Source: Azorhizobium doebereinerae UFLA1-100 (GTDB taxonomy: Bacteria > Pseudomonadota > Alphaproteobacteria > Rhizobiales > Xanthobacteraceae). From it: a stretch of DNA of 64,000 bases. Position 1 is the stretch's first letter. Every line of letters starts with the position of its first letter. The notes under the pieces are model-generated. The model was given only the letters and a program-made list of their open reading frames with translations. It was not told the DNA's origin and made no database searches. The position numbers and the translations under genes are program-made. Below are positions 5,130 through 28,176 of the stretch, one piece after another. The stretch lies in the NCBI RefSeq assembly GCF_000473085.1, contig NZ_AXBA01000026.1:35871-99870 (forward strand), written 5' to 3'.

Positions 5130-5160
5130 TTGACAACCTCGTAGATAATGCATTATGCAC
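5130..5160 (+). promoter_or_regulatory. Promoter with GntR-type operator upstream of the CoA-transferase
   Basis: A TTGACA box lies at 5130-5135, and the palindromic core TGCATTATGCA at 5149-5159 covers the expected -10 position (CATTAT at 5151-5156 with a 15-nt spacer). The 16 bases at 5145-5160 are identical to those at 17285-17300. A repressor bound here would block the polymerase. The rest of the 343-nt gap between the AraC gene (4885) and 5229 is GC-rich and shows no gene. Confidence 0.65.
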
Positions 5161-5228
5161 TATCTCAACGCGGCGGTGCCGGCGCTGTCTGGGCGCCGCA
5201 AGCCAGCCGAGCGCCCGGGGAGAAGGCC

Positions 5229-6473
5229 ATGAAGCGCGACAGTCTTGCCGGCAAGACCGTTCTGGAGATCGGCACGATGCTGGCGGCGCCGTTCGCGGGC
5301 CACGTGCTGGCGCAGATGGGGGCCGAGGTCATCAAGCTGGAATCGCCCGCGGGCGACCCGACGCGCAGCCTCGTGCGCGGTGGCCCCAGCGGCACCTACA
5401 TCGCCTATAGCCGTGGCAAGAAGAGCCTGTGCGTGGATCTCGCCTCGCCGGGCGGGCGCGAAGCGCTGGAGCGGCTTCTCCCCACCGTCGACATCGTCCT
5501 TCACAACCTGGCGCCCGCATCCGCACGGCGGCTGGGTGTGACCTACGAGGCCTGCGCCCGGGCCAATCCCGCGGTCGTCTACTGTCATATCCGGGGCTAT
5601 AACGAAGGCCCCCAGGCGGATGACCTGGCGTCCAACCCCATCGCCGAGGCGGCGACCGGGGTCATGGATGCGCACCGGGTCGACGGGCGTCCCAGCCGGC
5701 TCGGCCCCTCGTATCACGACCAGTTCGCCGGCTGCTACGCGGTCATCGGCATCCTCTCCGCCCTGCTCGATCCCGGTCTCGGCGCCGAGCATCGCAAGAT
5801 CGAGGTCGGTCTCTATGAGACCGGCCTGCATGTGGCGGCGCGCGACTATGCCGGCGTCCAGCTCAAGATGCACCTGACCGGCCGGCCGGACCCGGAGCCG
5901 TCGGGCGAGTTCAGCATGCCAGGCTATGGCGCCTATGAGACATCGGACGGCCGCTGGATCTATCTCGTGATGCTCACCGACCGTCATTGGGCGGACTTCT
6001 GGCGGGCGGTGAGGCAGCCGGTGGATCCGGACTATGCGACGCTCAGGTCGCGGAAGAAGCAGCGCGATCGGGTCGAGGCTCTGGTCAGGGAGGCGGTGGG
6101 CCGGTTCTCCTACGCGAATCTGGCGGCGCTGCTGGCCGCGGCCGGCTTCGGCTTCACGGAGGTGCTGCCCATGGAGCGGGTGCTGGAGGCGCCGCAGGCG
6201 CGGCATGGCCACAAGGTCACCCGCTTCGCTTTCCAGGACCTGCCCTTCGTGCTGCCGGACCTGCCGTTCGAATGGGGCGCGGCCACCCAGGCCGAACGAC
6301 CGCCGCCGCTGCTCGGGGAGCACACGCGCGAGACGCTGGCGGGGCTCGGCTTCTCCGCTGAGGCATGTGATGCGCTGGTGGCATCCGGCGCGGCGGTCGA
6401 GCCGGAGCCCGGTGCTCCGGTCTGGGCCCCCATCCGGTCGGTGGAGGTCCGCGCTCAGCCCGCACCCGCCTAG
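5229..6473 (+). CDS. Class III CoA-transferase (CaiB/BaiF family)
   Basis: This 414-residue protein matches the formyl-CoA transferase/CaiB fold, which moves CoA between carboxylic acids through an enzyme-aspartyl anhydride. The N-terminal block VLEIGTMLAAPFAGHVLAQM and the GAEVIKLE motif are standard. The catalytic aspartate by alignment with the family pattern (D followed by G four residues on, then an ALL helix) is D164 in YHDQFAG. ATG 5229 is chosen because it is preceded by GGGGAGAAGG and begins where the family begins; an upstream in-frame ATG at 5148 lies inside the operator. It is the first gene of the plus-strand catabolic region and is separated from the next gene by another operator. 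It probably activates the pathway's acid substrate. Confidence 0.85.
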   Translation: MKRDSLAGKTVLEIGTMLAAPFAGHVLAQMGAEVIKLESPAGDPTRSLVRGGPSGTYIAYSRGKKSLCVDLASPGGREALERLLPTVDIVLHNLAPASARRLGVTYEACARANPAVVYCHIRGYNEGPQADDLASNPIAEAATGVMDAHRVDGRPSRLGPSYHDQFAGCYAVIGILSALLDPGLGAEHRKIEVGLYETGLHVAARDYAGVQLKMHLTGRPDPEPSGEFSMPGYGAYETSDGRWIYLVMLTDRHWADFWRAVRQPVDPDYATLRSRKKQRDRVEALVREAVGRFSYANLAALLAAAGFGFTEVLPMERVLEAPQARHGHKVTRFAFQDLPFVLPDLPFEWGAATQAERPPPLLGEHTRETLAGLGFSAEACDALVASGAAVEPEPGAPVWAPIRSVEVRAQPAPA

Positions 6474-6476
6474 GAG

Positions 6477-6491
6477 ATGCATTCTGCATTA
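6477..6491. promoter_or_regulatory. GntR-type operator copy 2
   Basis: The core TGCATTCTGCA at 6478-6488 follows the stop codon of the CoA-transferase (6471-6473) by a few bases. It matches the core at 7512-7522 exactly and differs from the copies at 5149 and 17289 by one base. It lies 116-126 nt before the ATG of the metallo-hydrolase. Confidence 0.65.
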
Positions 6492-6603
6492 TGGCGGCGG
6501 CGGCCACGAGCCTGAGCGGATGCAGGGCCCCGGATGCGGCTGGTCAAGATGCGCGGCGCCGTGCGAAGCTCCGCGGAAACAAGAACATAAGAGGGAAGGC
6601 GCC

Positions 6604-7434
6604 ATGAGCGAGGTCGGGGCAAAGCCCTATGACATCTATGCCATCCGCTACGCGACCAACGCCAAGCGCCGGCGGGGGCAGAACTTCAACATCGAGGCTT
6701 CGCCCGATACTCCGTTGACGATGGACTTCTTCACCTGGGTGCTGGTGGGCGAGGACCGCACGGTGGTCATCGATACCGGGATGGAGCGGGCCAAGGCCGA
6801 GCGCAACGGCCATACCTTCCTGCGTGAACCGGCGGACGGGCTGCGCGCCCTCGGCATCGACCCGGCGGCTCAGACCCTGGTCGTGCTCACCCACGCGCAC
6901 TACGACCACATCGGCAACGTCGACCAGTATCCAAATGCCGAATTCCTGATGCCGCTGGCCGAGATGCAGTCGGTGACCGGGCCCGACATGCATCATCCCT
7001 GGATGCGGCATGCCTATGCATCCGACGAGATCGCCCGCTTGGTGCAGTATCTCCATGCCGGCCGGCTGAAGCTGCACGGCGCCGATCACGACGTCGCGCC
7101 GGGCGTTTCGGTGCATGTGGTCGGCGGGCACACGGCGGGGCAGTCGATCGTGCGAGTGCTCACCCGGCGTGGCTGGGTCATCCTGGCATCGGATGCTTTG
7201 CACTATTACGAGGAATATGAGCGGGGCGTGCCCTTCGCGGTGGCGCATTCCATCGCCGACATGCTGCGGGCCCACGATCGCATCCGCGCGCTCGCCGACA
7301 GCGACGACCATGTGCTGCCCGCCCACGATCCGCTGATCCTCCAGAAATATCCGGCCGCACGCCCCGAGCTGGAGGGGTTCGTCCTCCGCTTCGACGCGCC
7401 GCCGCATGCTGCCGCGAGCGACAAGGCGGCCTGA
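6604..7434 (+). CDS. Metallo-beta-lactamase-fold hydrolase, N-acyl homoserine lactonase-like
   Basis: This 276-residue hydrolase carries the zinc-binding HAHYDH motif at residues 97-102, a later HTAGQS histidine block and a SDALHYYEEY stretch typical of the AHL-lactonase (AttM/AiiB) group. Members of this group open lactone rings using a dinuclear metal centre. ATG 6604 is preceded by AGAGGGAAGG. It sits between two operator copies inside a CoA-dependent catabolic region and away from any luxI/luxR genes. A catabolic lactone or thioester hydrolase is therefore more likely than quorum quenching. Its substrate cannot be assigned from sequence. Confidence 0.75.
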   Translation: MSEVGAKPYDIYAIRYATNAKRRRGQNFNIEASPDTPLTMDFFTWVLVGEDRTVVIDTGMERAKAERNGHTFLREPADGLRALGIDPAAQTLVVLTHAHYDHIGNVDQYPNAEFLMPLAEMQSVTGPDMHHPWMRHAYASDEIARLVQYLHAGRLKLHGADHDVAPGVSVHVVGGHTAGQSIVRVLTRRGWVILASDALHYYEEYERGVPFAVAHSIADMLRAHDRIRALADSDDHVLPAHDPLILQKYPAARPELEGFVLRFDAPPHAAASDKAA

Positions 7435-7510
7435 CCAGGCGCGCACCAGAACACGGCTGAACGAAGAAGACGGCGGAGCCCGCCGTCGATACCATGCCCT
7501 CGATGCAAGA

Positions 7511-7525
7511 ATGCATTCTGCATTA
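7511..7525. promoter_or_regulatory. GntR-type operator copy 3
   Basis: The core TGCATTCTGCA at 7512-7522 lies in the 218-nt gap between the metallo-hydrolase and the MaoC-like hydratase. It is identical in core to the copy at 6478. It probably controls the transcript that starts with the gene at 7653. Confidence 0.65.
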
Positions 7526-7652
7526 AGCATCTGTTTCGTGAGCTGAATTCAAGGGCGGGAAGCCCCGAGCGCCGATCGCGTCAGCGACGGCGAAGGAAGA
7601 ACCGCGTCGGCCGTTCGCGCCGCCGCCGGAAGAGATGCAACGGGAGAAAGAC

Positions 7653-8858
7653 ATGGACGCTGTGACGGAAAAGGATGTCGGCCACGCTCCGGCCGAGGGC
7701 AAGATCACCGATGCGGCCGTGGCCGATGCCCGGAAGATGATCGGGCTCCAGCTTCGGCCCGAGGGGCCGTATCTCCAGGACGCGAGCCCGGACACCATCC
7801 GCAATTTCTGCAACGGTATCGGCGATCTGAACCCGCTGTACCGCGATGCCGAGCACGGGCGCCAGAGCCGCCTCGGCGGCAACGTGGCGCACCCCATGTT
7901 CCCGATGGCCTTCGGCTGGATCGGCCGCACGCGCTGGGGCCTCTCCGGGGTGCACGGCTTCTATGCCGGCAATGACTGGGAGCTGTTCCGCCATATCCGG
8001 CCCGGCGACCGCATCACCGCCATCGAGCGCGTGGTGGGCGTCGAGGAGAAGAAGAGCGAATTCTCAGGCCGCCTCGTGCTCCAGTATGTGGAGGCGACCT
8101 ACAGCAACCAGCGCGGCGAACTGGTGGCCCGCGCGCTCGGAACCTGCACGCGCCACGAGCGCAAGGCGGCGCGCGACGCGGGCAAGTACAAGGACATCAA
8201 GACCCACGAATACACGCCGGACGAGTTCGAGGCGATCGACGAAGCGATCCTGCGGGAGGAAGAGCGCATCCGCGGCAACAACGTGCGCTACTGGGAGGAC
8301 GTCAAGGAAGGGGAGGAACTGCCCCCGATCGTGCGCGGCCCACTGTCGCTCATGGATACGATGGGCTTCCTGGTGGGCTGTGGCCGCGGCCACACGCACG
8401 GCATCGTGCTGATGTCGGCCGTGAAACATCCCGGGCACTTCTTCCGCAACCCCGAAGCGGGCGGCGGCATCGAATACACCGGCATCGGCCACCACCGGGA
8501 GTCTGTCGCCAAGGAAGTGGGCGTGCCCGGCACTTATGACTATGGGCCGCAGCGCTCCGCATGGATGTGCAGCCTCGTCACCAACTGGATGGGCGATGCG
8601 GCCTTCCTGAAGCGCGTGCGCACCCAGATGCGGCGCTTCAACACCATGGGCGACTGCACGTGGTGCAAGGGCAAGGTCACCCGCAAGTATGTGAAGGACG
8701 GGTTTGCCCTCGTCGACCTGGAGATCTGGGGCGAGAACCAGCGCGGCGAACTCACCACGCCGGGCCTGGCGACGGTCATGCTGCCGTCCCGGGCCGTGGA
8801 GAACCGCGTGTTCTTCGATGGCGCGCAACTCGACCTCGATCTGCCGACGGTTCGCTGA
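7653..8858 (+). CDS. Double hot-dog acyl-CoA hydratase (FAS1-like/MaoC-like dehydratase)
   Basis: This 401-residue protein has two hot-dog halves. The N-terminal half (about 25-165) has the FAS1_DH-type block with DLNPLYRD followed by VAHPMFPMAF. The C-terminal half (about 200-385) is more diverged, with GRGHTHGIVLMSAVKHPG and RFNTMGDCTWCKGKVTRKYV. Such proteins hydrate enoyl-CoA esters or dehydrate hydroxyacyl-CoA esters. ATG 7653 is preceded by GGGAGAAAGAC; an upstream ATG at 7635 is less well placed. It follows an operator and is followed 40 nt later by two CoA-transferase genes. Together with the hydratase at 11312 it gives the region two distinct hydration steps, or one step plus a partner of altered specificity. 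Confidence 0.75.
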   Translation: MDAVTEKDVGHAPAEGKITDAAVADARKMIGLQLRPEGPYLQDASPDTIRNFCNGIGDLNPLYRDAEHGRQSRLGGNVAHPMFPMAFGWIGRTRWGLSGVHGFYAGNDWELFRHIRPGDRITAIERVVGVEEKKSEFSGRLVLQYVEATYSNQRGELVARALGTCTRHERKAARDAGKYKDIKTHEYTPDEFEAIDEAILREEERIRGNNVRYWEDVKEGEELPPIVRGPLSLMDTMGFLVGCGRGHTHGIVLMSAVKHPGHFFRNPEAGGGIEYTGIGHHRESVAKEVGVPGTYDYGPQRSAWMCSLVTNWMGDAAFLKRVRTQMRRFNTMGDCTWCKGKVTRKYVKDGFALVDLEIWGENQRGELTTPGLATVMLPSRAVENRVFFDGAQLDLDLPTVR

Positions 8859-8898
8859 AGCGGTCCGTTCACGTCTTCCAATCGGTGGCGGTGTTCAA

Positions 8899-10107
8899 AT
8901 GAACGGGTGCGTCGAGGGGCCGCTCAACGGCCTCACCATCGTCGAACTGTCATCGGGTGCGGGAGCGGCCTATGCGGGCCGCCTCCTGTCCACCCTGGGT
9001 GCGCTCACCGTGTTGATGGAGCCGCCGGAGGGCTCCGCCCTCCGGCGCAGGCCTCCCTTTCTTCCGCGGCCTGCCGGAGAGGGGGAGGATGTCAGCGCGC
9101 TCTTTGCCTACCTCTCCGCCGGCAAGTCCAGCGTCGTCTGCGACCCGCAGTCTCCGGCCGGACGCGCGAGCTTTCATCGCCTGCTGGAGACGGCGGACGC
9201 CTTCATCTGCGACGTGCCCTTGTCGCAGAGGGCGGCGATGGGCGTGGATGAGGCGAGTGTCCGCGCGAGGAATCCGGCGCTGACCTATGTGTCGGTTCTC
9301 CCGTTCGGGGCCAGCGGTCCGAACGCCGGATGGCGGGGCGAGGAGATCACGCTCATTCACGCCTCCGGCGAGGGCTTCCTCCTTCCCAACGGCCTGTCGG
9401 CCGAGATGTTTCCGGATCGGCCGCCGATCAAGATCCATGGCCATTTCGCGGAGATGCAGGGCGGCGTGGTGGCCGCGCTCGGCGCCCTGGCCGCGCTGCT
9501 GTCGAGGTCGGCGGCGCAGGGAGAGGCGGTGGACGTGTCGATCCAGGACGCGGCCCTGGCGGTCGGTGCGTTCGCCATCCAGCGGCTGGGCGACGGATCT
9601 CTTGAGCATCGGGTCACCCGCTCGTTCAAGTATGGCGGGGTGTTGGAGTGCGCCGACGGTTATGTCCAGTTGCTCACCCTGGAGGAGCGGCAGTGGACAG
9701 GGCTCGTCGAGCTGATGGGCCGGCCGGACTGGGCCACTGCCCCTGACCTTCAGGATCCGCTGGAGCGGGGCCGGCGCGGCGCGGAGATCAACGCCCGGAT
9801 ACGCGCCTGGAGCAAGGGCGAGACGACGGCGGACGTCGTCGCGCGGGCCCAGAAGCTGGGCGTGCCCATGGCCAAGTACAGCAGCCCGGCGGACGTGCTG
9901 GCCGGCGCGCACGAGCAGGCGCGGGGCCTGTTCCAGCGGGTGGATATCCCAGGCGCCACGCCTGCGCCCGTTCTCGTCGCGCCGTTTCACCTGGACGGAG
10001 CTTCCCTTCGATTGCGTGGTGGGCCTCCGGCCTTGGGCGAACATCAGGCCATCCTGCACATCACCAATCGAAGGGAGACCGCCGGCTTGGCGGTGGGCGC
10101 GCGATGA
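8899..10107 (+). CDS. Class III CoA-transferase-like subunit (catalytic Asp replaced by Glu)
   Basis: This is a 402-residue CaiB/BaiF-family protein. The N-terminal GLTIVELSSGAGAAYAGRLL block and overall length fit the family. At the position of the catalytic aspartate, counted back from the conserved G and ALL helix, it has E185 (HFAEMQGG) instead of Asp. The two other CoA-transferases in this region keep D164 and D167. It overlaps the next CoA-transferase gene by 4 nt (ATGA at 10104-10107), so equimolar translation is likely. One reading is a heteromeric CoA-transferase with a non-catalytic partner. The ribosome-binding site before ATG 8899 is weak (GGTGGCGG). Confidence 0.75.
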   Translation: MNGCVEGPLNGLTIVELSSGAGAAYAGRLLSTLGALTVLMEPPEGSALRRRPPFLPRPAGEGEDVSALFAYLSAGKSSVVCDPQSPAGRASFHRLLETADAFICDVPLSQRAAMGVDEASVRARNPALTYVSVLPFGASGPNAGWRGEEITLIHASGEGFLLPNGLSAEMFPDRPPIKIHGHFAEMQGGVVAALGALAALLSRSAAQGEAVDVSIQDAALAVGAFAIQRLGDGSLEHRVTRSFKYGGVLECADGYVQLLTLEERQWTGLVELMGRPDWATAPDLQDPLERGRRGAEINARIRAWSKGETTADVVARAQKLGVPMAKYSSPADVLAGAHEQARGLFQRVDIPGATPAPVLVAPFHLDGASLRLRGGPPALGEHQAILHITNRRETAGLAVGAR

Positions 10108-11294
10108 AACCGCTGGCTGGCCTCAGGATCGCGGACTTCACCGTCCACGCCGCCGGACCCTTCTGCACGCACATGCTGTCCCAGCTCGGGGCCGAGTGCA
10201 TCAAGATCGAGAGCAGCCTGCGGCCCGATATCTTCCGCAAGCCCCATCCCGTCTATGGGCGGATGGGCCCGGCGAGTTTCGACCAGGTTGCGTCGAACAA
10301 GCTCTCGGTTCGCATCAATCTGAAGGATCCGCGCGGGGTGGACCTTGCCAAGCGCCTGGTCTCCATCAGCGAGATGGCCGCCGAGAGCTTTCGGCCCGGC
10401 GTCATGGCGCGGCTTGGCCTCGGCTACGATGTCCTGTCGCAGGTCAAGCCTTCGCTGGTCATGCTTTCCGTCTCCTCCTCCGGCCAGACGGGGCCCGATT
10501 CTCACTTTGCGGGCTATGCGCCGCTGTTCGGGGCCTGGGGTGCTCTTGGCTTCCTGACGGGATATGCCGATGGCCCGCCTGTGGAGATGCGCCACGTGAT
10601 GGACCATTCGGTGGGCATGAACGCCGCCGTCGCCGCCTTAGCTGCGTTCTACCGGATGCGGGCCACGGGGCGGGGATGCCATGTCGATGTCAGCGCCCGC
10701 GAAGTGGCGTCCTCGCTCGCGGGGGAGGCCCTGCTGCTGGCGGCCGCGGGCGGCGCGCCGGCGCGCATGGGCAACCGGGACCTGCAAATGGCACCCCACG
10801 GCGTCTATGCGACATCGCAGGCGGACCGTTGGCTGACCATCGCAGTGCGGGAAGACGCCGAGTGGACGGCGCTGCTGGGCGTGATGGGCCGGAGGGAACT
10901 CGGCGATGACCCGCGGTTCCGGGACGCCGCATCCCGCCTGAAGCATGCGGCCGATCTGGATGTCGAGGTCGAGAGCTGGACGGGGACGCAGATCGCCGAG
11001 CCGGCTGTCGCGCGCTTGCAGGCGGCCGGCGTGCCGGCCTCGGTGTCGGCGACCACCGCTGACCTCACGCGTGACGTGCATCTGCGTGACCGCGGCGCCG
11101 TCGTGGATGTCGAGGACACCGACGGGAAGACCCGCGCGGCTCTGTCGGTTCCGATCCGCTTTTCCCAATCGGAGGCCGGTCTGGAGCGAGGCACGCCCCG
11201 ACTGGGCGAGGACGAGAATTATGTCTTTGGCGAACTGCTCGGCCTGTCGCGCGCGAAACGGGCGGAGCTGGCTGAAGCCCAGGTGATCCACTAG
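10104..11294 (+). CDS. Class III CoA-transferase (CaiB/BaiF family)
   Basis: This 396-residue CoA-transferase keeps the expected catalytic aspartate at D167 (VMDHSVGMN) and the N-terminal GLRIADFTVHAAGPF block. The start overlaps the stop of the previous CoA-transferase by 4 nt, a layout typical of subunits of one enzyme. It is followed after 17 nt by the mesaconyl-CoA-hydratase-like gene, as in itaconate and 3-hydroxypropionate-bicycle gene sets where a CaiB-type transferase feeds a hot-dog hydratase. It probably forms the CoA ester that the neighbouring hydratase uses. Confidence 0.82.
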   Translation: MKPLAGLRIADFTVHAAGPFCTHMLSQLGAECIKIESSLRPDIFRKPHPVYGRMGPASFDQVASNKLSVRINLKDPRGVDLAKRLVSISEMAAESFRPGVMARLGLGYDVLSQVKPSLVMLSVSSSGQTGPDSHFAGYAPLFGAWGALGFLTGYADGPPVEMRHVMDHSVGMNAAVAALAAFYRMRATGRGCHVDVSAREVASSLAGEALLLAAAGGAPARMGNRDLQMAPHGVYATSQADRWLTIAVREDAEWTALLGVMGRRELGDDPRFRDAASRLKHAADLDVEVESWTGTQIAEPAVARLQAAGVPASVSATTADLTRDVHLRDRGAVVDVEDTDGKTRAALSVPIRFSQSEAGLERGTPRLGEDENYVFGELLGLSRAKRAELAEAQVIH

Positions 11295-11311
11295 CAGGCA
11301 GGCGGGATGGC

Positions 11312-12184
11312 ATGAACCAGGTGATCGAGGCGTCGGGAACGGAAAGCTGGCAGGGATGGGTGGGCCGCCAGGAGACGGTCAGCGAACTGCTGTCGGCGGA
11401 GAAGGTGGCCGGCCTCGCCGCCACGCTCGATATCGGCATGTCTCCGGCGGCCGGCGACATGCTGCCGCCGGGCTGGCACTGGCTGTTCTTTAATCCGTTC
11501 GTGCCGCGCAGCGCCCTTGGCGTCGACGGCCATCCCAGGCGCGGCGGCTTTCTGCCGCCCGTGCCGCTGCCCCGGCGCATGTGGGCGGGCGGCCGCGTCT
11601 TCTACAGCCAGCCCTTGACCATCGGGAAGATCGCGACTCGGACCAGCACCATCTCGAAGGTGGAGGCGAAGTCCGGACGGGCCGGGCATCTCGTGTTCGT
11701 CACGGTGGTGCATCGCACGACCTGCTGCGACGTGGAGTGCATCGTCGAGGAGCAGGACATCGTCTATCGCGAGGCCGCCGCGCCCGGTGCGCCGGCACCC
11801 GCCCTGACGCCCGCGCCGGCGGGAGCGCAATGGCGCACGGTCGTGGAGCCGGATCCGGTTCTGCTGTTCCGCTACTCAGCGCTCACCTCCAACGGCCACC
11901 GCATCCACTATGACGGGGACTATGCCCGCCGGGAGGAGAATTATCCGGCCTTGGTGGTGCATGGGCCGCTGACGGCGACGCTGCTCCAGAACTTCGCAAG
12001 CGAGCTGCGGCCCGACGCCGACCTGACGCGCTTCGAGTTCCGCGGGGTGCATCCGCTTTTCGTCAACGCGTCCTTCACGCTGGAGGCCAAGCTTTCGGAA
12101 AATCCCGACGAGGCGCTCGAACTCTGGGCGAAAGGTCCACGCGACGAACTGGCGATGCGGGCGACTGCATTCTTCTCGCGTTAG
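11312..12184 (+). CDS. Mesaconyl-C4-CoA / itaconyl-CoA hydratase-like protein
   Basis: This 290-residue protein closely follows the mesaconyl-C4-CoA hydratase (Meh) and itaconyl-CoA hydratase (Ich) pattern. The block WHWLFFNPFVPRSALG starts at residue 55, and GGFLPPVPLPRRMWAGG and VEEQDIVYRE follow. The C-terminal half holds the hot-dog block with HYDGDYAR and YPALVVHGPL. The known enzymes add water to mesaconyl- or itaconyl-CoA to form citramalyl-CoA, which a CitE-type lyase then cleaves; such a lyase gene lies at 16494. The start has only a modest ribosome-binding site. This is the best clue to the chemistry of the region: hydration of an unsaturated dicarboxylyl-CoA or a close analogue. 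Confidence 0.8.
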   Translation: MNQVIEASGTESWQGWVGRQETVSELLSAEKVAGLAATLDIGMSPAAGDMLPPGWHWLFFNPFVPRSALGVDGHPRRGGFLPPVPLPRRMWAGGRVFYSQPLTIGKIATRTSTISKVEAKSGRAGHLVFVTVVHRTTCCDVECIVEEQDIVYREAAAPGAPAPALTPAPAGAQWRTVVEPDPVLLFRYSALTSNGHRIHYDGDYARREENYPALVVHGPLTATLLQNFASELRPDADLTRFEFRGVHPLFVNASFTLEAKLSENPDEALELWAKGPRDELAMRATAFFSR

Positions 12185-12257
12185 GAGGCAAGTCGAGGGA
12201 GCCCTGTAACAGACAGAAGCGTGGCCAACACGCCTGTTCATCGGAGAGGGAAAGCCA

Positions 12258-13091
12258 ATGAAGGTGTGTCACGCACCGGAAACGGTGGCGGTGCTGGAGA
12301 TCGCGAAGCCGGCGGTCGAGTTCAAGGGCGTGCGGAAGGTCTTCCAGTCCCGGAGCGGGCCGCTGGAAGTCCTGCGGGACTTCTCGCTTGTGGTGGCGGA
12401 GGGGGAGTTCCTTGCCGTGGTCGGGCCGAGCGGCAGCGGCAAATCCACGGTTCTGAACCTGCTCGCGGGGCTGGATATGCCAGACGAGGGGCATATTGCG
12501 TGCAACGGGGCGCCCGTTGACGGGGTGAACACCGAGATCGGCTATCTCACCCAGCACGACAGCCTGCTGCCCTGGCGAACGGTGGAGGAAAACGTCGCGG
12601 TACCGCTGGAGATCCGCGGCGTGGCCGTTTCCGAGCGAAGGGACAGGGTCCACGCGATGATCGCGAGCGTGGGCCTGAAAGGGTTCGAGCGCCATCATCC
12701 CCGCCAGCTTTCCGGCGGTATGCGCAAGCGCGCCATGCTCGCGCGCACCCTCATCTACAATCCGTCGACGATCCTCATGGACGAGCCGTTCGGCCCGCTC
12801 GACGCCCAGCTCAAGCTGGTGCTGCAGGCCGAGCTGATGCGGCTGTGGAGCGAATCCCGCAAGACGGTGGTGTTCGTGACGCATGACATCGTGGAGGCCA
12901 TCACCCTCGCTGATCGGGTGGTCGTACTGTCGCCCCGCCCGTCGCGGGTCAAGCTCGGCGAGCGGATCGCGATCGGGCGTCCGCGCAGCGTGCATGACGT
13001 CCGGTTCGCGCCCGCGTTCGAGGATCACTACCGCCGCCTCTGGGGGGCGATCGAGACCGACATCGGGAGACAGCCGCATGACCAGCAATGA
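12258..13091 (+). CDS. ABC transporter ATP-binding protein (nitrate/sulfonate/taurine type)
   Basis: This is a 277-residue ATPase with Walker A GPSGSGKST at residues 56-64, a Q-loop (LTQHDSLLPWRT), the signature LSGGMRKR, Walker B ILMDEPFGPLD and the switch histidine in VFVTHD. The sequence follows the SsuB/TauB/ThiZ branch. The ATG is preceded by GAGAGGGAAAG. It overlaps the permease gene by 14 nt and is followed by the Tat-exported binding protein at 13962, giving a complete importer. In this context it probably imports the pathway substrate or a related compound rather than a sulfonate; no sulfur-metabolism gene is nearby. Confidence 0.85.
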   Translation: MKVCHAPETVAVLEIAKPAVEFKGVRKVFQSRSGPLEVLRDFSLVVAEGEFLAVVGPSGSGKSTVLNLLAGLDMPDEGHIACNGAPVDGVNTEIGYLTQHDSLLPWRTVEENVAVPLEIRGVAVSERRDRVHAMIASVGLKGFERHHPRQLSGGMRKRAMLARTLIYNPSTILMDEPFGPLDAQLKLVLQAELMRLWSESRKTVVFVTHDIVEAITLADRVVVLSPRPSRVKLGERIAIGRPRSVHDVRFAPAFEDHYRRLWGAIETDIGRQPHDQQ

Positions 13092-13887
13092 TGTAGCCGC
13101 CCCCAGTCGCCGGCCGCGCGTCGGGATGGCAGCTTCCTCGTGGCGTGTCAGCAGGATCTGGGTCTACCGCCTGCTGTTCGCCGCGGCTTTCCTGGCCTTC
13201 TGGCAGTTTGCGTCCGGTCGGCTGGCTGATCCGTTCTGGATCAGCAGCCCAAGCGCCATCCTCGCGCGATTGAGCGAGTGGGTGCGCACGGGCACCTTGC
13301 AGTACAATCTGATGATCACGTTCAAGGAGACGATTTCCGGTTTCCTGATGGGGGCCACCGCCGGCGTGCTCGCGGCCTGCGTGGCGGGCGCCAACGATAC
13401 GATCCGCCGAACGGTCGATCCCTTCGTGACGGCGGTCTACGGCCTCCCGAAGGTGGCGCTGGCGCCGCTGTTCATCATGTGGTTCGGCATCGGCATGGCG
13501 CCGAAAATCGTTCTCGCGGCGGTCAGCGTGTTCTTCCTTGTGTTCTTCAGCACCCTGAGCGGCGTGCGGGAGGTCGATCACAAGATGGTGGAGGCGCTGC
13601 GGACCATGGGCGCCGACCGCCTGACCATCCAGCGCTGCGTCGTCCTTCCTGCGGCGATGCCCTGGATATTCACCGGCCTGAAGCTTGGATTGCCATACGG
13701 GTTCGTCGGCGCGGTGGCGGCGGAAATGATGGCGTCGAACGCCGGCATCGGATTCCTCACGCAGAACGCCGCGGGCCAGCTCGACACCGCCGGTGTGTTC
13801 GCCGCCCTGTTCGCGCTCATGGTGGTCACCTCCCTGCTCAATGAAGGGCTGGGGCGCCTTGAAGCCTGGATCTTCCGCTGGCGCTGA
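13078..13887 (+). CDS. ABC transporter permease (TauC/SsuC type)
   Basis: This is a 269-residue inner-membrane permease with about six hydrophobic segments. The BPD cytoplasmic loop is visible as EALRTMGADRLTIQRCVVLP, preceded by a GLPKVALAPLFIMWFGIG motif characteristic of the SsuC/TauC group. The ATG at 13078 overlaps the ATPase reading frame by 14 nt, so translation is coupled. It works with the ATPase at 12258 and the binding protein at 13962. Confidence 0.85.
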   Translation: MTSNDVAAPSRRPRVGMAASSWRVSRIWVYRLLFAAAFLAFWQFASGRLADPFWISSPSAILARLSEWVRTGTLQYNLMITFKETISGFLMGATAGVLAACVAGANDTIRRTVDPFVTAVYGLPKVALAPLFIMWFGIGMAPKIVLAAVSVFFLVFFSTLSGVREVDHKMVEALRTMGADRLTIQRCVVLPAAMPWIFTGLKLGLPYGFVGAVAAEMMASNAGIGFLTQNAAGQLDTAGVFAALFALMVVTSLLNEGLGRLEAWIFRWR

Positions 13888-13961
13888 GCCCTGAGCGGAG
13901 CGGCCGGGCGACTTCCGCCCTGTCGGCTGAAGAAACGCGAAACCAGAGAGGGAGGGTCGTT

Positions 13962-14993
13962 ATGATTTCTCGCAGGTCCTTGCTTCGCGGCATCGGGCAG
14001 GCCACGGCGGTTGCCGCTCTTCCGCCCTTCACCCGGTCCGCATCGGCCCAGGTCGCGAAAGGCATTCCCCTCACGATCGGCATCGGCGGTTATACGTTCG
14101 CCTACCTGCCGCTGCTCGTGGCCAAGTCCGCCAACATCCTGACCGAGGAGGGGCTCGATGTGTCGCTGGTCAATACCGGAAGCGGCACCAACACGCTCGC
14201 GGCCATGCTGGGCGGCAGCGTCGAGGTCAGCGGCCTGGTCATGAGTGATGTGATCCTGGCGGCCGCGAAAGGCCAGAAGATCCAGGCCTTCGCACCGCTG
14301 ATGTCCCAGTATGCCAGCGACGCGATCATCAGCGTGTCCGCGGCGAAGAAGGTGGGTATCGAACCCGGAATGCCGCTGAAGGAGCGGATGGCCCGCATGA
14401 AGGGGCTGGTGCTGGCGGTTTCGGGGCGCGGCAGCGGGATCGACAAGCTCTGGCGATACCTGCTGGCCCTCGGGGGGCTGGACCCGGATCGCGATGTCAC
14501 CCTGACGGTGGTCAAGCTCGACCAGATGTATTCCGCTCTCAAGTCCGGCCAGATCGACGGCTTCAATACCACCGCGCCGGCCAACAACCGGGCGGTGGAG
14601 GAGGGGCTGGCCGTATGGGTCGCGCGCCCATCGCAGGGCGAAGTGCCAGGGTTGGAGAACTTCCTCTACACCGCGCTATGTGCCCGTCCCGGCTACACTT
14701 CCGACAAGGCGGACATCGCCGGAAAGCTCACGCGGGCCCTGGCGCGTGCGTCGCGGATGATCCAGGACAATCCGCAGGAGGCGGGCCGCCTGATGCAGAA
14801 GGAGTTCTTCGCCCAGACGGATCTGCGCCTGATCGAGAGCGCTGTTGCGGATCAACGCAAGACGGCCGCGGTGCCTCCCACATTGAGCCGGCGGCAGTTC
14901 GACCAGAACCTGGAGTTCATGGCGCGCTTCGGCCATGACGTGGCGGGCGTGTCCTACCAGGACGTCATCGACCCGCGGCTGCTCGGCGTGTGA
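13962..14993 (+). CDS. ABC transporter substrate-binding protein with Tat signal (NMT1/SsuA type)
   Basis: This 343-residue periplasmic binding protein starts with a twin-arginine signal (MISRRSLLRG) and a cleavable hydrophobic stretch ending near ASA-Q. The mature part follows the SsuA/TauA/NMT1 pattern, with FAYLPLLVAKSANI near the start, where such proteins bind small carboxylates, sulfonates or heterocycles. It has a strong GAGAGGGAGGG ribosome-binding site. It is the last gene of the plus-strand run starting at 7653 and is followed by a perfect hairpin at 15049-15081. Confidence 0.83.
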   Translation: MISRRSLLRGIGQATAVAALPPFTRSASAQVAKGIPLTIGIGGYTFAYLPLLVAKSANILTEEGLDVSLVNTGSGTNTLAAMLGGSVEVSGLVMSDVILAAAKGQKIQAFAPLMSQYASDAIISVSAAKKVGIEPGMPLKERMARMKGLVLAVSGRGSGIDKLWRYLLALGGLDPDRDVTLTVVKLDQMYSALKSGQIDGFNTTAPANNRAVEEGLAVWVARPSQGEVPGLENFLYTALCARPGYTSDKADIAGKLTRALARASRMIQDNPQEAGRLMQKEFFAQTDLRLIESAVADQRKTAAVPPTLSRRQFDQNLEFMARFGHDVAGVSYQDVIDPRLLGV

Positions 14994-15048
14994 CCGGACC
15001 GTCGTGGACGGCGGCTGGCAGGCCGCCGCGCACGGCCAGCCGTCGACT

Positions 15049-15081
15049 GCGATCAGGCGCGGGCCAGCCGCGCCTGATCGC
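15049..15081. terminator. Bidirectional hairpin between convergent genes
   Basis: Perfect 13-bp arms GCGATCAGGCGCG (15049-15061) and their complement (15069-15081) enclose a 7-nt loop. The hairpin lies between the converging ends of the binding-protein gene (14993) and the isochorismatase-fold gene (15088). No T-run follows, so it may act with Rho or as a transcript 3' end. Confidence 0.7.
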
Positions 15082-15087
15082 GCCGGT

Positions 15088-15669
15088 TCACGAAGCGAAG
15101 TCCACCTCGTCGCTGGAGCGGATCGCCACGAAGCGCGCCATCGAGCGCAGGGCGTTCTCGTGCTCCTCCGCCGTCGCTCCGGCGCAGCAGTCCTCCAGCA
15201 CGATGCAGTCATAGTCCCGGTCATGCGCCTCGCGCGCGCCGGCGTGAACCACGCCGTTGGTCGAGACACCCGAGAGGACGAGGCGCGTGATCCCGCGCGC
15301 GCGCAGGGCTGGCTCCAGCGCCGTGCCGTAGAAGGGGCTCACCCGGTGCTTGACGAAATCGAAGTCCTCCGGGGCCGGCGAGAACTGCTCATGGACCTCG
15401 GTTCCCCAGGTGCCGAGCTTGAACAAGCCGTTGTCGCGCGCCTTCGAGAACACCGGGGAGGAAGGGGGGCAATCCCGATAGTCGGGGGCGAAGCCCACCC
15501 GGACATAGCCGATCAGCGCGCCGGCCGAACGTGCCCTGTCGATCGCCGCCCGGGTGCGTCCCATGACGTCGCGTGCCGCCATCTGCGGCACATAGGTCTT
15601 GGCACCGGCGCCATTCGCATGGACGAGGTCGTTCAGCATGTCCATGACAAGAAACATGGTGGACGTCAT
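15088..15669 (-). CDS. Isochorismatase-fold hydrolase lacking the catalytic cysteine
   Basis: This is a 193-residue alpha/beta hydrolase of the isochorismatase superfamily. The usual triad positions are D10 (VMDMLND), K107 (FVKHRVSPFYGT) and the residue six after G134 in the GVSTNGVV loop. That last position is V140, where cysteine amidohydrolases (nicotinamidase, N-carbamoylsarcosine amidase, RutB) have Cys. It may therefore act like the cysteine-less members that cleave enol ethers, or be altered. The gene overlaps the 3' end of the GntR regulator by 4 nt (15666-15669) and shares its transcript, so it belongs to the same regulated pathway. Confidence 0.8.
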   Translation of the reverse strand: MTSTMFLVMDMLNDLVHANGAGAKTYVPQMAARDVMGRTRAAIDRARSAGALIGYVRVGFAPDYRDCPPSSPVFSKARDNGLFKLGTWGTEVHEQFSPAPEDFDFVKHRVSPFYGTALEPALRARGITRLVLSGVSTNGVVHAGAREAHDRDYDCIVLEDCCAGATAEEHENALRSMARFVAIRSSDEVDFAS

Positions 15670-16358
15670 GATGGTACTTTCTCCTCCGCGGTTTCACTTT
15701 CTTGGGCGGCAGGAGCGGCGCGCGCACTGTCGAAGCACTGGCGGAACTCGTACCAGCCGGACTCGATATGGCGGCGCATGGTGAGCATGGCGCCGCCGGC
15801 ATCTCCCTCGATGAAATTCCGCAGCAGCTCCGCATGCTCCGCCGCGGCGCGCTGGGCGCGGCCCTCGACGCGATTGATGACATCGAACGGGTAGCGCGCC
15901 CACAGCACCTGCACGAAGTGCAGCGTCTGCGGGAGCTGGGCGAAGTCATAGATCCGGCGATGGAAGCGATAGTTGATGCCGCGCGCCGCGCTGCTGTCGC
16001 CCGCGTTCGCCGCCGCCTCGAACTGGTTGGCGATCTCCCTCAGCTCGGCGATCTCGTTCGATCCCAGATTGCGGGCGGCGCTTTCGACGAGCTGGGTTTC
16101 CAGCATGATGCGCAGCTTGAGGATCTCGGTCGACGCGCTGACGTCGAACGGGACCACGGTCGCGCCGCGATAGGAGTTGCTCTCGATGTAGCCCTCCGCC
16201 TCAAGGAGCTTCAGCGCCTCGCGGACCGGGGTGATCGAGGTGCGCAGCTCGTCGGCGATTTCCTGCTGCTTGAGGCGCGCGCCGCGCGGCAGGCGGCCCG
16301 AGATGATGCCTTCGCGCAGGAAGTCCGCAACCTGCTCTTCCTTTGTCCGGTATTCCAT
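15666..16358 (-). CDS. GntR-family regulator, FCD (FadR) subfamily; likely regulator of this region
   Basis: This 230-residue regulator has an N-terminal winged helix (about 1-75, with LKQQEIADELRTSITPVREALKLLEAEGYI) and a C-terminal FCD ligand domain (about 80-210) containing the histidine-rich NYRFHRRIY and EHAELLRNFIEGD helices that bind metal and effector. It is divergent from the CitE-like gene. The 135-nt gap holds a perfect 21-bp palindrome at 16460-16480, and four more copies of its core lie before other transcription units of the region. Autoregulation and regulon control are therefore inferred. Effectors of this subfamily are usually small carboxylic acids or acyl-CoAs, so a pathway intermediate is likely. 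The ribosome-binding site is weak. Confidence 0.87.
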   Translation of the reverse strand: MEYRTKEEQVADFLREGIISGRLPRGARLKQQEIADELRTSITPVREALKLLEAEGYIESNSYRGATVVPFDVSASTEILKLRIMLETQLVESAARNLGSNEIAELREIANQFEAAANAGDSSAARGINYRFHRRIYDFAQLPQTLHFVQVLWARYPFDVINRVEGRAQRAAAEHAELLRNFIEGDAGGAMLTMRRHIESGWYEFRQCFDSARAAPAAQESETAEEKVPS

Positions 16359-16459
16359 GGTCGTGCTTGGGTCGCCCGTTGCCGTTCCCGAGCCTTCCGG
16401 AGCGGAGGCTCATTGACGCAATGACATACCATATCGTTGCCCGGTGAAGAAGGAGAACA

Positions 16460-16480
16460 TATAATGCATGATGCATTATA
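16460..16480. promoter_or_regulatory. Perfect GntR-type operator between gntR and the lyase gene
   Basis: Two 10-bp arms around a central G at 16470 form a perfect 21-bp palindrome with core TGCATGATGCA at 16465-16475. It lies 14 nt upstream of the lyase ATG, close to or inside its leader, and 102 nt from the gntR start. This is the most symmetric of the five copies and probably the highest-affinity site. Confidence 0.8.
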
Positions 16481-16493
16481 ATTGAGGTAGATC

Positions 16494-17288
16494 ATGCGAA
16501 CCGCCCGTTCCATCCTGTTTGTCCCGGCCGACCGGCCGGAGCGCTTTGAGAAGGCCGCGGCCGCCGGCGCCGACGGCGTCATCCTCGATCTTGAAGACGC
16601 CGTCCCGTTCGAACGCAAGGATCCGGCGCGGGATGCCGTGATCGCCTGGCCCGGCAGCCGGCGCTGTATCCTCAGGATCAACCCATTTGGTACGCAATGG
16701 TTTTCCCGCGACCTCGAGATGGCGGCGCGGGCGGATATCCGGACGATCATGGTGCCTAAGGCCGATCCGGAAAGCCTCGCCGCTGTCCACGCCGTTCTGG
16801 GCGGCGAGGTCGGGTTGATCGCTTTGGTCGAGACCGTCGACGGCTACATGCGGTTGCGGGAGGTCTGCCGGCAGGCGGGCGTGGTGCGCCTTGCCTTCGG
16901 CAATCTGGATTTCGGGATGGATTCGGGCCTGGACGACGGCGCGCTCGACGGCGTGCGGGTGCAGATCGCGCTCGAATCGCGCTTTGCCGGGTTGGTTCCG
17001 CCGATCGACGGCGTGTGTGCGGCGCTCAAGGATGAGGATGCCATCGGCCGCGAGGCCCGGCTGGCGAAGGGCAGGGGATATGGGGGCAAGCTCTGCATCC
17101 ATCCCGCGCAGGTCGCCCCGGTCAATGCCGCATTCCTGCCGTCCGATGCCGATCTCGCCTGGGCGCGGCGGATCCTCGACGCCGTGGCGCAGGGCGGGGC
17201 AGGTGCGATCGCGGTGGATGGGAAAATGGTGGATCGGCCCGTGGTCGAGCGCGCGAGGGCCATCACAGCCGCCGGTGGTCAAAAATAA
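16494..17288 (+). CDS. HpcH/HpaI-family CoA-ester lyase (CitE / citramalyl-CoA lyase-like)
   Basis: This is a 264-residue TIM-barrel lyase of the CitE/malyl-CoA lyase family. The substrate-phosphate arginine block SILFVPADRPERFEKA is at the N-terminus, the Mg-binding DLEDAVPFERK begins near residue 31, and the second acidic ligand lies in the LAFGNLDFGMD block. KLCIHPAQVAPVN near the C-terminus is the family's conserved KxxIHPxQ motif. Such enzymes cleave malyl-, methylmalyl- or citramalyl-CoA to an acyl-CoA plus glyoxylate or pyruvate. TGAGGTAG precedes the start. With the hydratase at 11312 and the CoA-transferases it completes an activate-hydrate-cleave sequence. Its TAA stop (17286-17288) lies inside the next operator. 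Confidence 0.85.
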   Translation: MRTARSILFVPADRPERFEKAAAAGADGVILDLEDAVPFERKDPARDAVIAWPGSRRCILRINPFGTQWFSRDLEMAARADIRTIMVPKADPESLAAVHAVLGGEVGLIALVETVDGYMRLREVCRQAGVVRLAFGNLDFGMDSGLDDGALDGVRVQIALESRFAGLVPPIDGVCAALKDEDAIGREARLAKGRGYGGKLCIHPAQVAPVNAAFLPSDADLAWARRILDAVAQGGAGAIAVDGKMVDRPVVERARAITAAGGQK

Positions 17289-17300
17289 TGCATTATGCAC
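17285..17300. promoter_or_regulatory. GntR-type operator before the branched-chain-type ABC genes
   Basis: The core TGCATTATGCA at 17289-17299 begins within the stop codon of the lyase gene and lies about 86 nt before the ATG of the binding protein at 17386. All 16 bases at 17285-17300 are identical to 5145-5160. Confidence 0.7.
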
Positions 17301-17385
17301 TTTCGGTTTGACCGGCAAAGTTTGGTCAACTATCGTTCCTTTCAATGGGCAAAAAAAGCCCGCTCATGGTCCTAGGGAGGCCATC

Positions 17386-18597
17386 ATGAACCGGCGCGCA
17401 GCGCTCAGGTTGTTAGCTTCGGCTGCCATCTCCGCACACATGTTGCCATTGCGATCCGCGTTCGCGGATACGATCGGGGTTGATCCGGCGAACAAGACCG
17501 TGACCATCGGCGGGTTCACGCCGATCACCGGCCCCGTCCCCTTCTATGCGATCCTGACCCACGCCGCGGAGGCCTTCTTCCGCGCCGCGAACGAGGCGGG
17601 CGGCATCAAGGGGTGGAAAATCCGCTACGTCACCATGGATGACGGGTACGATCCGGCGCGCAGCGTCGCGGTGACCCGGCGGCTGGTCGAGGACGAGAAG
17701 ATCTTCGCCCTCGTCGCATCCGTGGGCACGGCGACGAACGTGGCGGTGATCCCCTATGCCCAGGAGGCGGGCCTCGGCATGTTCGGGCCGATCGGGGGCG
17801 CCTCGGTGTTCTTCTCGCAGCCGAACGTCTTCCCGCTGCTGCCGGACTACGGCTGGTCGGCGGCCTCGAATGCCGAATACGCCTTGAAGGACCTGAAGCT
17901 CGAGAAGATCGCGCTGCTCTGGGAGAATGACGAGCTCGGCCGATCCGCCAAGCGCGGGTTCGAGCTCTATATGGACGCGCAGAAGCTCGCGCCGGCCGAA
18001 TCCGTGCCGTTCGAAGTGAAGACGACGGACTTCACGCCCCACATCCGGCGGGTGGCCAATTCCGGTGCCCAGGCGGCCATCCTCTTCGGCTCCAATGCGA
18101 ACCTGGCGGGTGCCCTGAAGGCCGCCGACCGGCAGGCGCTCAAGTTGAACTGGTTCGCGCCGTTCTTCACCGCCGACCCCTCAACCTACAAGCTCGCCGG
18201 CAAGCTGCTCGACGGGGTGTACTTCTCGTCCTGGCTGCTGCCGGTCACGAGCGAGGATCCGGCGGTCAAGGCGTATCGGGACGCCATTACGAAATACTAT
18301 CCCGATGATCCGGTCGGCGTATTCGGCCTCAACGGCTGGAGCAATGCGGCGCTGTTCGCGAAGGTCTTCGAGGCGCTGATCGACAGCGGCAAGCCGATCA
18401 CGCGCGAGAACCTGCTGGCCGCCGGCAACACGCTCACCGATGCCTCGGTGGGCGGCGCGCGGAAGGTCACCTTCACGGCGAATGACCATCGGGGGACGCG
18501 CCAGGAGGCGATCCTCCAGGCGCGGGATGGTGCCTTCACCATGGTGAGGGACTTCCGCCCCTATCCGGCCGTCGCGTTCGACGCCAAGCCGGCCTAG
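17386..18597 (+). CDS. ABC transporter substrate-binding protein (LivJ/Leu-Ile-Val-binding type)
   Basis: This is a 403-residue periplasmic binding protein with an MNRRAALRLLASAAISAHM signal region and cleavage near AFA-D. The mature part follows the type I periplasmic-binding fold: KTVTIGGFTPITGP at the start, KIRYVTMDDGYDP, and the inter-lobe block SVGTATNVAVIPYAQEAG. A strong AGGGAGG precedes ATG 17386. It feeds the LivHMGF-like genes at 20360-23749, from which it is separated by two dehydrogenase genes. LivJ-like proteins bind amino acids, but also aromatic acids, amides and urea. Its operator ties it to the CoA pathway, so a carboxylate or amide is more likely than leucine. Confidence 0.85.
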   Translation: MNRRAALRLLASAAISAHMLPLRSAFADTIGVDPANKTVTIGGFTPITGPVPFYAILTHAAEAFFRAANEAGGIKGWKIRYVTMDDGYDPARSVAVTRRLVEDEKIFALVASVGTATNVAVIPYAQEAGLGMFGPIGGASVFFSQPNVFPLLPDYGWSAASNAEYALKDLKLEKIALLWENDELGRSAKRGFELYMDAQKLAPAESVPFEVKTTDFTPHIRRVANSGAQAAILFGSNANLAGALKAADRQALKLNWFAPFFTADPSTYKLAGKLLDGVYFSSWLLPVTSEDPAVKAYRDAITKYYPDDPVGVFGLNGWSNAALFAKVFEALIDSGKPITRENLLAAGNTLTDASVGGARKVTFTANDHRGTRQEAILQARDGAFTMVRDFRPYPAVAFDAKPA

Positions 18598-18701
18598 CTG
18601 CATCCGCAGGCTTGCAGCATCTTCGTGCCGCGGGCGATCGGCCGCATCGCCCGCGCGCTGGGCTCACCCATCGCGGCCACCCATGCATCAAGGATCAGTC
18701 T

Positions 18702-19448
18702 ATGGCTGGATCTCCCGTAAGTGGCCCTCCGCGTCTGGATGGTCAGGTCGCGCTCGTCACGGGCGCGGCCGGTGGTATTGGCAGGGCCGTCGTGCGTGTT
18801 CTGGCGGAGGCGGGCGCCAGGGTGGTGGCGACGGACATCGTCGCGGAGGCGGATCTTGCGCAGGCGGCGGGCTACAAGCGTTGCGATCTCACCTCCCAGC
18901 AGGACAGCGAGCGGCTGATTGACGAGGTCTGCGCCGAGTTCGGGGCCGTCGACATCCTCGTCCTCTGCGCGGGCAGCATCTCGAACAAGCCGCTGTGGGA
19001 GTCCACCGATGAGGAGTGGAAGTCCGTCTTCGACGTCAATGTCATGGGGGTCGTCCATCCGGTCCGCAAGCTCTACCCGCTGATGGCGGAACGCGGCTAC
19101 GGCAAGATCGTCGCGCTCGGCTCCATCGCCGCGAAGATCGGCGGTGTCGCGTCCGGCCCCTCCTATGTGGCGGCGAAATCCGCGGTCCACGGCCTGATGA
19201 AGTGGGTCGCGAAGGCCGGGGCGGGCAAGGGCGTCTATGCGAACATCATTGCGCCGGGGCCCGTCGAGACGCCCATGTGGGCGAACGTGACGGGGCAGGC
19301 GCCGCCTTCGGCGAGCGGCAGCGTCCCGCTCGGTCGCTTCGGCACGCCCGACGACATCGCCCAAAGCATTCTTTTCCTCTGCTCGCCCGCGTCGAACTGG
19401 ATCACCGGCACGGTGCTCGACGTGAATGGCGGCATGTTGATGGATTGA
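18702..19448 (+). CDS. SDR-family NAD(P)-dependent oxidoreductase
   Basis: This is a 248-residue classical short-chain dehydrogenase. The cofactor loop TGAAGGIGRA follows QVALV near residue 15. The catalytic Ser, Tyr and Lys are visible in GSIAAKIGG and in SYVAAKSA, and the C-terminal WITGTVLDVNGG is standard. The motif VVATDIV after strand 2 places an Asp at the ribose position, which suggests NAD+. ATG 18702 has AAGGA upstream. The next gene starts 3 nt after its stop. Between the binding protein and the permeases, it probably oxidises or reduces a hydroxy/keto intermediate of the imported compound. Confidence 0.85.
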   Translation: MAGSPVSGPPRLDGQVALVTGAAGGIGRAVVRVLAEAGARVVATDIVAEADLAQAAGYKRCDLTSQQDSERLIDEVCAEFGAVDILVLCAGSISNKPLWESTDEEWKSVFDVNVMGVVHPVRKLYPLMAERGYGKIVALGSIAAKIGGVASGPSYVAAKSAVHGLMKWVAKAGAGKGVYANIIAPGPVETPMWANVTGQAPPSASGSVPLGRFGTPDDIAQSILFLCSPASNWITGTVLDVNGGMLMD

Positions 19449-22226: not shown

Positions 22227-22227
22227 T

Positions 22228-26965: not shown

Positions 26966-26977
26966 GGCGGCCTCCGC

Positions 26978-28099: not shown

Positions 28100-28176
28100 G
28101 TGTGGTCTCTCCTGGCCCGTGCGGGGCCGGCAATGCCTGCAAGCTGTGTGGGGCGCGGCGCGTGGTGCGCTCAGGC

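Follow-up and report, generated by a model that had tools for sequence, protein, structure and literature searches.

What reads the five palindromes that precede the gene groups in a coenzyme A (CoA)-linked catabolic cluster of Azorhizobium doebereinerae UFLA1-100, and what would their reader control? The window, that is the whole stretch of DNA analysed, comprises 64,000 nt of contig NZ_AXBA01000026.1 (35,871-99,870), and coordinates are window positions. The cluster carries a gene for a GntR-type regulator with an FCD domain, hereafter the GntR protein, and the reading that we consider quite likely is that the palindromes serve as its operators. The GntR protein would repress every operator-marked gene group, its own gene included, until a carboxylate or CoA ester of the pathway releases it. 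We infer that the GntR protein is the binder, repression the sign of its action and a pathway intermediate the inducer, and one effector may govern the whole gene set, as an earlier note on this DNA had proposed. Papers are cited below by PubMed Central (PMC) identifier.

Form and uniqueness of the palindromes

Cores of the form TGCAT-N-(A/C)TGCA had been reported at 5149-5159, 6478-6488, 7512-7522, 16465-16475 and 17289-17299, and all five are present there, within a common 21-bp motif, TATAATGCATNATGCATTATA. The site beside gntR, described in the earlier note as a perfect 21-bp palindrome, is one of odd length (16460-16480, TATAATGCATGATGCATTATA). The 13-bp core pattern matches the window five times where a Markov model expects 0.07 (maximum of one in 100 simulations). 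Scored with a matrix made from 45 unique 21-mers, all of them taken from orthologue and plasmid loci described below with the window left out, the five sites reach 37.3, 33.8, 33.7, 28.3 and 24.1 out of sample, and the next-best separate place scores 13.2, in agreement with the assertion that the window holds no further copy. The TGCA-N3-TGCA core of this matrix is imposed by the search pattern; beyond it the matrix shows a preference for A/T at ±6/±7, variability at the centre and, without any demand from the pattern, a separate A/T at ±9 that is conserved (81%).

A motif search of the whole genome (5.81 Mb in 104 contigs, completeness listed as 99.99%) had been set beforehand as a test, many equally good copies being the outcome that would speak against a local regulon. 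The five sites turned out to be the sole places within one mismatch of the 17-base WWATGCATNMTGCAYTW, so that their uniqueness extends to the assembled genome at that quality. Three further places, all outside contig 20, lie at two mismatches, and the remaining places listed at three. On a 17-column matrix the three two-mismatch places score 9.6, 10.5 and 14.9 against 26.3-31.2 for the five operators, and three places with three mismatches that were also scored give 5.6, 12.4 and 15.8. An 11-base pattern with up to two mismatches matched the window 131 times against a shuffle mean of 169.7 and was set aside as uninformative; because such loose matches are no commoner than chance, only exact or near-exact cores carry information.

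Some of the operators overlap promoter-like elements or keep a fixed distance from them. The operator arm spells TATAAT on both strands, and the TTGCCC-17-TATAAT ahead of CitE is the best promoter-like match in 5000-18000 (four found, 1.2 expected). Two other matches flank operator 5, one at 17262-17289 with its -10 inside the operator and one at 17308-17336 with its -35 just past it, and a TTGACC begins 14 nt past the centre of the same site. With a TTGACA upstream of it (5130-5135), operator 1 would lie over the -10 region, and operator 3 is followed 7 bp further on by a third, weak half-site.

Conservation with the regulator and promoter geometry

Used as query against GTDB genomes, the GntR protein returned 50 loci, of which 32 (L004-L034 and L037; best-segment identity 59-86%, L034 partial) form the orthologue set. 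The other 18 serve as distant controls and, together with nine loci of FCD paralogues from the own genome (short stretches, 32 kb together), make a control set of 27. A search with MaoC1 added nine plasmid records, including a Ti plasmid of Agrobacterium, an At plasmid and records from Salipiger, Qingshengfaniella and Cupriavidus, the ninth being a 38% Comamonas homologue; the comparison covers six of the nine. The strict pattern occurs 48 times in the orthologue loci, where 0.8 sites are expected, with at least one site in 22 of the 32, and five times in the six plasmid loci. It occurs in none of the 18 distant-GntR loci and none of the nine paralogue loci, and a looser core pattern has single matches in three of the distant loci (L045, L049, L053). 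A matrix score of at least 20 is reached in 26/32 orthologue loci, 5/6 plasmid loci (L064 giving 19.9) and 1/27 control loci, the first two figures being partly so by construction since both sets supplied the matrix.

The search upstream of orthologous clusters, proposed in the earlier note, thus finds the same motif with GntR orthologues and ahead of orthologous genes, which supports a local regulon of the cluster's GntR protein. A survey of 58 sites (53 from relatives, five from the window) with 19 query genes gave 60 site-gene pairs, namely livK 20, gntR 12, MaoC1 12, CitE 10, CaiB1 5 and the metallo-beta-lactamase-fold (MBL) gene 1, the gntR and CitE pairs often being one shared site. Among 297 genomes sampled from the order, eight, the window's own included, hold a GntR orthologue (E 1e-50), and a site within one mismatch of AATGCATNATGCATT occurs in seven of these eight vs 89 of the 289 without an orthologue; the latter figure means that single good copies arise by chance in other genomes. 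The listed sites lie on the gntR contig and within 11 kb in G064, G092, G245 and G249, that of G296 is on a different contig, and those of G060 are not among the matches listed; by their coordinates G249 and G296 are apparently the genomes of L005 and L006 and hence not independent. At the same threshold the orthologue is absent from all ten sampled genomes of the same family, apart from the window's own, so that the cluster is accessory.

Once the pairs are split by target gene, two fixed geometries appear. TTGAC starts 13-14 nt past the operator centre in 17/20 livK pairs and lies 20-26 nt ahead of it in 7/17 CaiB1/MaoC1 pairs, the background in each case being about 0.5% per 10-nt window. 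The livK spacing also occurs outside Bradyrhizobium (the window, L004-L007, L013, L025, L029, L068); it is not seen in L065 or L067, nor at the second of the L004 sites. A single peak of TTGACA-likeness over all pairs was sought as well, and there is none upstream or downstream. The core of the MaoC1 pairs is furthermore distinct in having C at +1 (TTC in nine and TCC in one of 12; the one GAA is the complement), as is that of the single MBL pair, and 0/47 pairs at other genes show it; each promoter therefore keeps its own version of the operator, and these versions may tune affinity.

Several departures from the basic form were seen. In the closest relative, Azorhizobium oxalatiphilum (L004:9640-9900), CitE is missing between gntR and livK and two operators stand 237 bp apart. 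In an Acidovorax sp. (L021:11390-11425) four consecutive TGCA-type half-sites, the last of them AGCA, follow each other at 7-bp spacing upstream of an open reading frame (ORF) resembling a tripartite-tricarboxylate binding protein; as TGCA is its own complement, this run holds several overlapping operators. A half-changed variant, AATATAAAATGCATTATC, in which one TGCA has become TATA, recurs in L020 (9755-9775), L025 (8814-8834), L064 and L068 (14899-14919), in the last two ahead of MaoC1.

A number of observations weigh against operators for autoregulated repression by the GntR protein. The strict site is absent from 10/32 orthologue loci, and six (L020, L022, L023, L031, L032, L034) have no score of at least 20; of these, L031 (a contig of 4.6 kb) and L034 (a match that is partial and broken) are little informative. 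L022 and L023 have a decayed copy ahead of MaoC1, where L018, L019, L024 and L030 keep an intact one, and L032 has no copy, even decayed, at that place. Thirteen of the 58 sites have no query-gene start within 400 bp downstream, some of them close to where the fetched DNA ends. The counts are not independent, since Bradyrhizobium contributes 8/20 livK pairs as well as most of those at CitE and gntR, and G159 has the orthologue and no site at up to one mismatch. The promoter scan of 5000-18000 lists no promoter for operators 1-3, and the livK operator precedes TTGAC, a position also open to activation.

This last point invites a dual action, in which the GntR protein represses CitE and CaiB1, with an operator lying over the -10, and activates livK, whose operator lies just upstream of the -35. 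Both conserved TTGAC geometries could be accommodated in this way, and FCD activators such as CitO exist (PMC4746285). The promoter-like match at 17262-17289, with its -10 inside operator 5, would nevertheless fit repression. Moreover, the TTGAC offset puts the centre of the livK operator near -48/-49, which is no usual position for an activator, and we consider dual action unlikely.

Terminators, DNA-structure features or mobile repeats could also take the form of palindromes, and operators 2 and 5 do lie at the 3′ ends of genes, while relatives of the cluster reside on plasmids. The fixed TTGAC spacing, the variable centre base and the lack of copies elsewhere in the genome all point away from such features, and just two G-C pairs per arm would make a weak terminator, which renders this explanation very improbable.

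Finally, another transcription factor may read the sites, the gntR gene being a bystander that travels with the cluster. BoxR/BzdR proteins (HTH-XRE) bind TGCA repeats, in the main form ATGCACTATAGTGCAT (PMC6449761), and a gene for an AraC-type regulator (3968-4885, minus strand) adjoins CaiB1. The TGCA spacing of the window sites is 3, however, and none of the 38 relative loci holds a match to the AraC gene at E 1e-10. In addition, gntR and CitE have one of the sites between them, and the motif tracks the GntR orthologue; we therefore regard another reader as improbable and the GntR protein as the likely one.

Putative recognition by the GntR protein

The GntR protein combines an N-terminal winged helix-turn-helix (HTH; PF00392, residues 7-68, E 6.3e-15) with a C-terminal FCD domain (PF07729, residues 78-199, E 1.8e-22). 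Its nearest solved chain is McbR/YncC (4p9f, E 1.4e-14) and the closest chains also include 3sxy, two structures that have been compared as VanR members (PMC7797058). In an alignment of 38 proteins, with one short locus (L034) left out, the HTH residues Q31, S41, I42, T43, P44, R46 and E47 are identical in 38/38, as are N129, H133, H175 and H197. The latter four, assigned as metal-site residues from the alignment with TM0439-type chains, supply in sequence the three His plus Asn or Asp that form the metal site of Atu1419, TM0439 and PS5454 (PMC7797058).

The idea that FadR-subfamily proteins bind palindromes of this kind is not supported in that wording. The published consensus of that subfamily is TKGT/ACMA, its GT and AC standing 2-3 nt apart (PMC4494728), and TGCA breaks it at the conserved GT/AC, the five sites and those of the relatives reading TGCA-N3-TGCA instead. 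NanR and BioR deviate from TKGT/ACMA as well, the consensus being common in the FadR subfamily and not defining it, and the TGCA motif letters do not occur in the same paper (PMC4494728). In FadR, Glu34, Arg35 and Arg45 are contact or bracing residues (PMC4494728), and in Atu1419 the guanine read by Arg45 is essential (PMC7797058). The orthologues of the present cluster have Ile at the Arg45 position and Gln at the Glu34 position, in both cases in 38/38. This matching was made by eye from the shared R-E, and we take Gln31 to correspond to Glu34, residue 32 (A, Q, T, L or V) to Arg35 and Ile42 to Arg45. Paralogues from the own genome (9 of 24 matches covered, one of them unalignable) have Arg at the Arg45 position in 6/8 aligned and Ile in 0/8.

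Comparison with known regulators places the system further. McbR shares SITPVREAL in the recognition helix and has a site description outside GT/AC (PMC13343897), so that Ile42 alone is not new; the Escherichia coli protein differs at positions 31/32, and its sites from chromatin immunoprecipitation sequencing are reported as ATATAT-like and very numerous (PMC13343897). Atu1419 of Agrobacterium fabrum, from the VanR group, is likewise an FCD GntR repressor of a catabolic cluster, with several palindromes overlapping -10 boxes and a metal site of three His plus Asn/Asp, but its palindrome is ATGTATACAT with the essential Arg45-read guanine (PMC7797058), where we find Ile42, a TGCA box and a 3-nt centre. 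The TKGT/ACMA regulators of the FadR subfamily (PMC4494728) resemble the present case in the short A/T-rich palindrome, the single divergon site and possible extra adjoining half-sites; CA/TG here replaces GT/AC, and Gln/Ile replace Glu34/Arg45 of FadR. For Ms0535 of Mycobacterium smegmatis, also a GntR protein, a footprint covers a palindrome that contains TGCAT and has CCTTGCATGCA repeats, but the arrangement there is one of two 11-bp inverted repeats 4 nt apart (PMC4609117). No GntR regulator appears in the title or shown abstract of the open-licence PMC papers matching the motif spellings, and the pairing of an Ile42-type protein with a TGCA operator was not found in our searches of the open-licence PMC literature.

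Gene content and the putative pathway

Beyond the gene set previously tied to the operators (two ABC importers, three CoA-transferases, two hydratases and a lyase), the cluster takes in three more enzymes, namely a hydrolase of lactonase-like type, an SDR and one resembling 3-hydroxyisobutyrate dehydrogenase (Table 1).

Table 1. Putative operators and genes of the catabolic cluster, in window positions
Feature	Coordinates	Strand	Sequence or product	Remarks
operator 1	5144..5164		GATAATGCATTATGCACTATC	centre 75 bp ahead of CaiB1 ATG
CaiB1	5229..6473	+	class III CoA-transferase (PF02515)	
operator 2	6473..6493		GGAGATGCATTCTGCATTATG	starts at CaiB1 stop codon; centre 121 bp ahead of MBL gene ATG
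MBL gene	6604..7434	+	metallo-beta-lactamase-fold hydrolase, lactonase-like (PF00753)	
operator 3	7507..7527		AAGAATGCATTCTGCATTAAG	ahead of MaoC1-CaiB2-CaiB3-MaoC2-tauBCA run
MaoC1	7653..8858	+	hot-dog dehydratase/hydratase	
CaiB2	8914..10107	+	class III CoA-transferase	start uncertain; tandem with CaiB3
CaiB3	10104..11294	+	class III CoA-transferase	
MaoC2	11312..12184	+	itaconyl-CoA hydratase-like	
tauB/tauC/tauA-like genes	12258..14993	+	ABC importer	ATPase 12258-13091; permease ends 13887; NMT1-type binding protein 13962-14993
gntR	15666..16358	-	GntR regulator, 230 aa	PF00392 winged HTH and PF07729 FCD
operator 4	16460..16480		TATAATGCATGATGCATTATA	between divergent gntR and CitE; left arm is -10 of promoter-like TTGCCC-17-TATAAT
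CitE	16494..17288	+	HpcH/HpaI lyase	
operator 5	17284..17304		AATAATGCATTATGCACTTTC	overlaps CitE stop codon; ahead of livK-SDR-dehydrogenase-livHMGF
livK	17386..18597	+	livK-type substrate-binding protein (PF13458)	
SDR gene	18690..19448	+	SDR dehydrogenase	start uncertain
dehydrogenase gene	19452..20363	+	3-hydroxyisobutyrate-dehydrogenase family	nearest solved chain 2-hydroxymethylglutarate dehydrogenase (3cky)
livH, livM, livG, livF	20387..23749	+	importer genes	livH start uncertain

MaoC1 is the most conserved protein of the cluster, at 76-96% wherever the fetched stretch holds an orthologue, L027 and the Comamonas plasmid having just 38% homologues. None of the three class III CoA-transferases reaches an NCBIfam equivalog cut-off; the nearest solved chain of CaiB3 is a benzylsuccinate CoA-transferase subunit (9fn0_B, E 7.8e-58). 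MaoC2 matches the itaconyl-CoA hydratase structure 8khg over residues 13-262 (E 1.6e-70). The best NCBIfam model of CitE is the citramalyl-CoA lyase RipC, at 134.9 bits and below the cut-off of 375, which makes it homologous and outside the equivalog; its nearest solved chains are 8khl, a 'probable acyl-CoA lyase beta chain' (E 1.3e-48), and 9nzb, which likewise bears the name of an acyl-CoA lyase beta chain. For the MBL hydrolase the best model is AidB (58.4 bits, cut-off 360). Beyond livF, RND efflux genes (23867-29767, minus strand: AcrB-type pump, membrane fusion protein, outer-membrane channel) adjoin the cluster and have no copy of the operator; across the 38 relative loci, matches are limited to two weak ones (28-29%) for the pump, with none for the membrane fusion protein.

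Because two of its enzymes resemble those of itaconate degradation, the pathway probably ends with conversion of itaconyl-CoA to citramalyl-CoA and then to acetyl-CoA and pyruvate. In this respect the cluster is like RipABC, both in MaoC2 and in the best model of CitE, and is set apart from it by the missed RipC cut-off; the extra CoA-transferases, second MaoC, lactonase-like hydrolase, SDR and dehydrogenase suggest that the pathway starts from a different substrate. The class III CoA-transferases would activate an acid that a lactone may supply, the two MaoC-type (de)hydratases would take it to citramalyl-CoA, and the RipC-like lyase would split this into acetyl-CoA and pyruvate. A coherent scheme would run from a lactone to a hydroxymethyl-dicarboxylate, followed by CoA transfer, dehydration to itaconyl-CoA by MaoC1, hydration to citramalyl-CoA by MaoC2 and cleavage by CitE, the exact substrate named here being at best an unlikely guess. 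As to the entry point, one may speculate about paraconate or hydroxymethylsuccinate, vitamin B6 breakdown, pantoate or the strigolactone D-ring.

The core common to 6/6 plasmids comprises livK, SDR, dehydrogenase, livHMGF, MaoC1, CaiB2, CaiB3, MaoC2, CitE, CaiB1 and gntR. In Cupriavidus pinatubonensis (L069) livF is followed by an SMP-30/gluconolactonase gene, at the place that an N-acyl-homoserine-lactonase-like gene takes in Agrobacterium; further downstream L069 has a gene for pyruvate carboxylase. These lactonase-type genes and the pyruvate carboxylase gene suggest that the pathway may include hydrolysis of a lactone and may yield pyruvate. Inside the cluster of the five annotated plasmid relatives (L064, L065, L067, L068, L069; L066 is unannotated) there is also a gene annotated as a cysteine hydrolase, and L069 adds a DUF2889 gene, neither of which is among the scanned window ORFs.

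Judged by sequence and comparison, the regulon is real and of an ordinary kind, that of a local FCD repressor acting on its own gene too; its operator is unusual, and our searches of the open-licence PMC literature gave no description of its pathway. Tentatively, and with more doubt than confidence, we suggest that the DNA code of an FCD subgroup changed from GT/AC to TGCA through replacement of Glu34/Arg35/Arg45 by Gln/neutral/Ile. Together with its operators this subgroup might travel on plasmids and between Alpha- and Betaproteobacteria, serving as the integral switch for a pathway not yet described, one that leads from a lactone or hydroxymethyl-dicarboxylate via itaconyl-CoA to acetyl-CoA and pyruvate. 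The shared control signal marks out the genes that belong to a widespread catabolic pathway and helps to find its substrate. Furthermore, a motif outside the subfamily consensus together with a matching change in the protein provides a testable regulator-operator pair, and a clean case for the recognition code of the GntR family.

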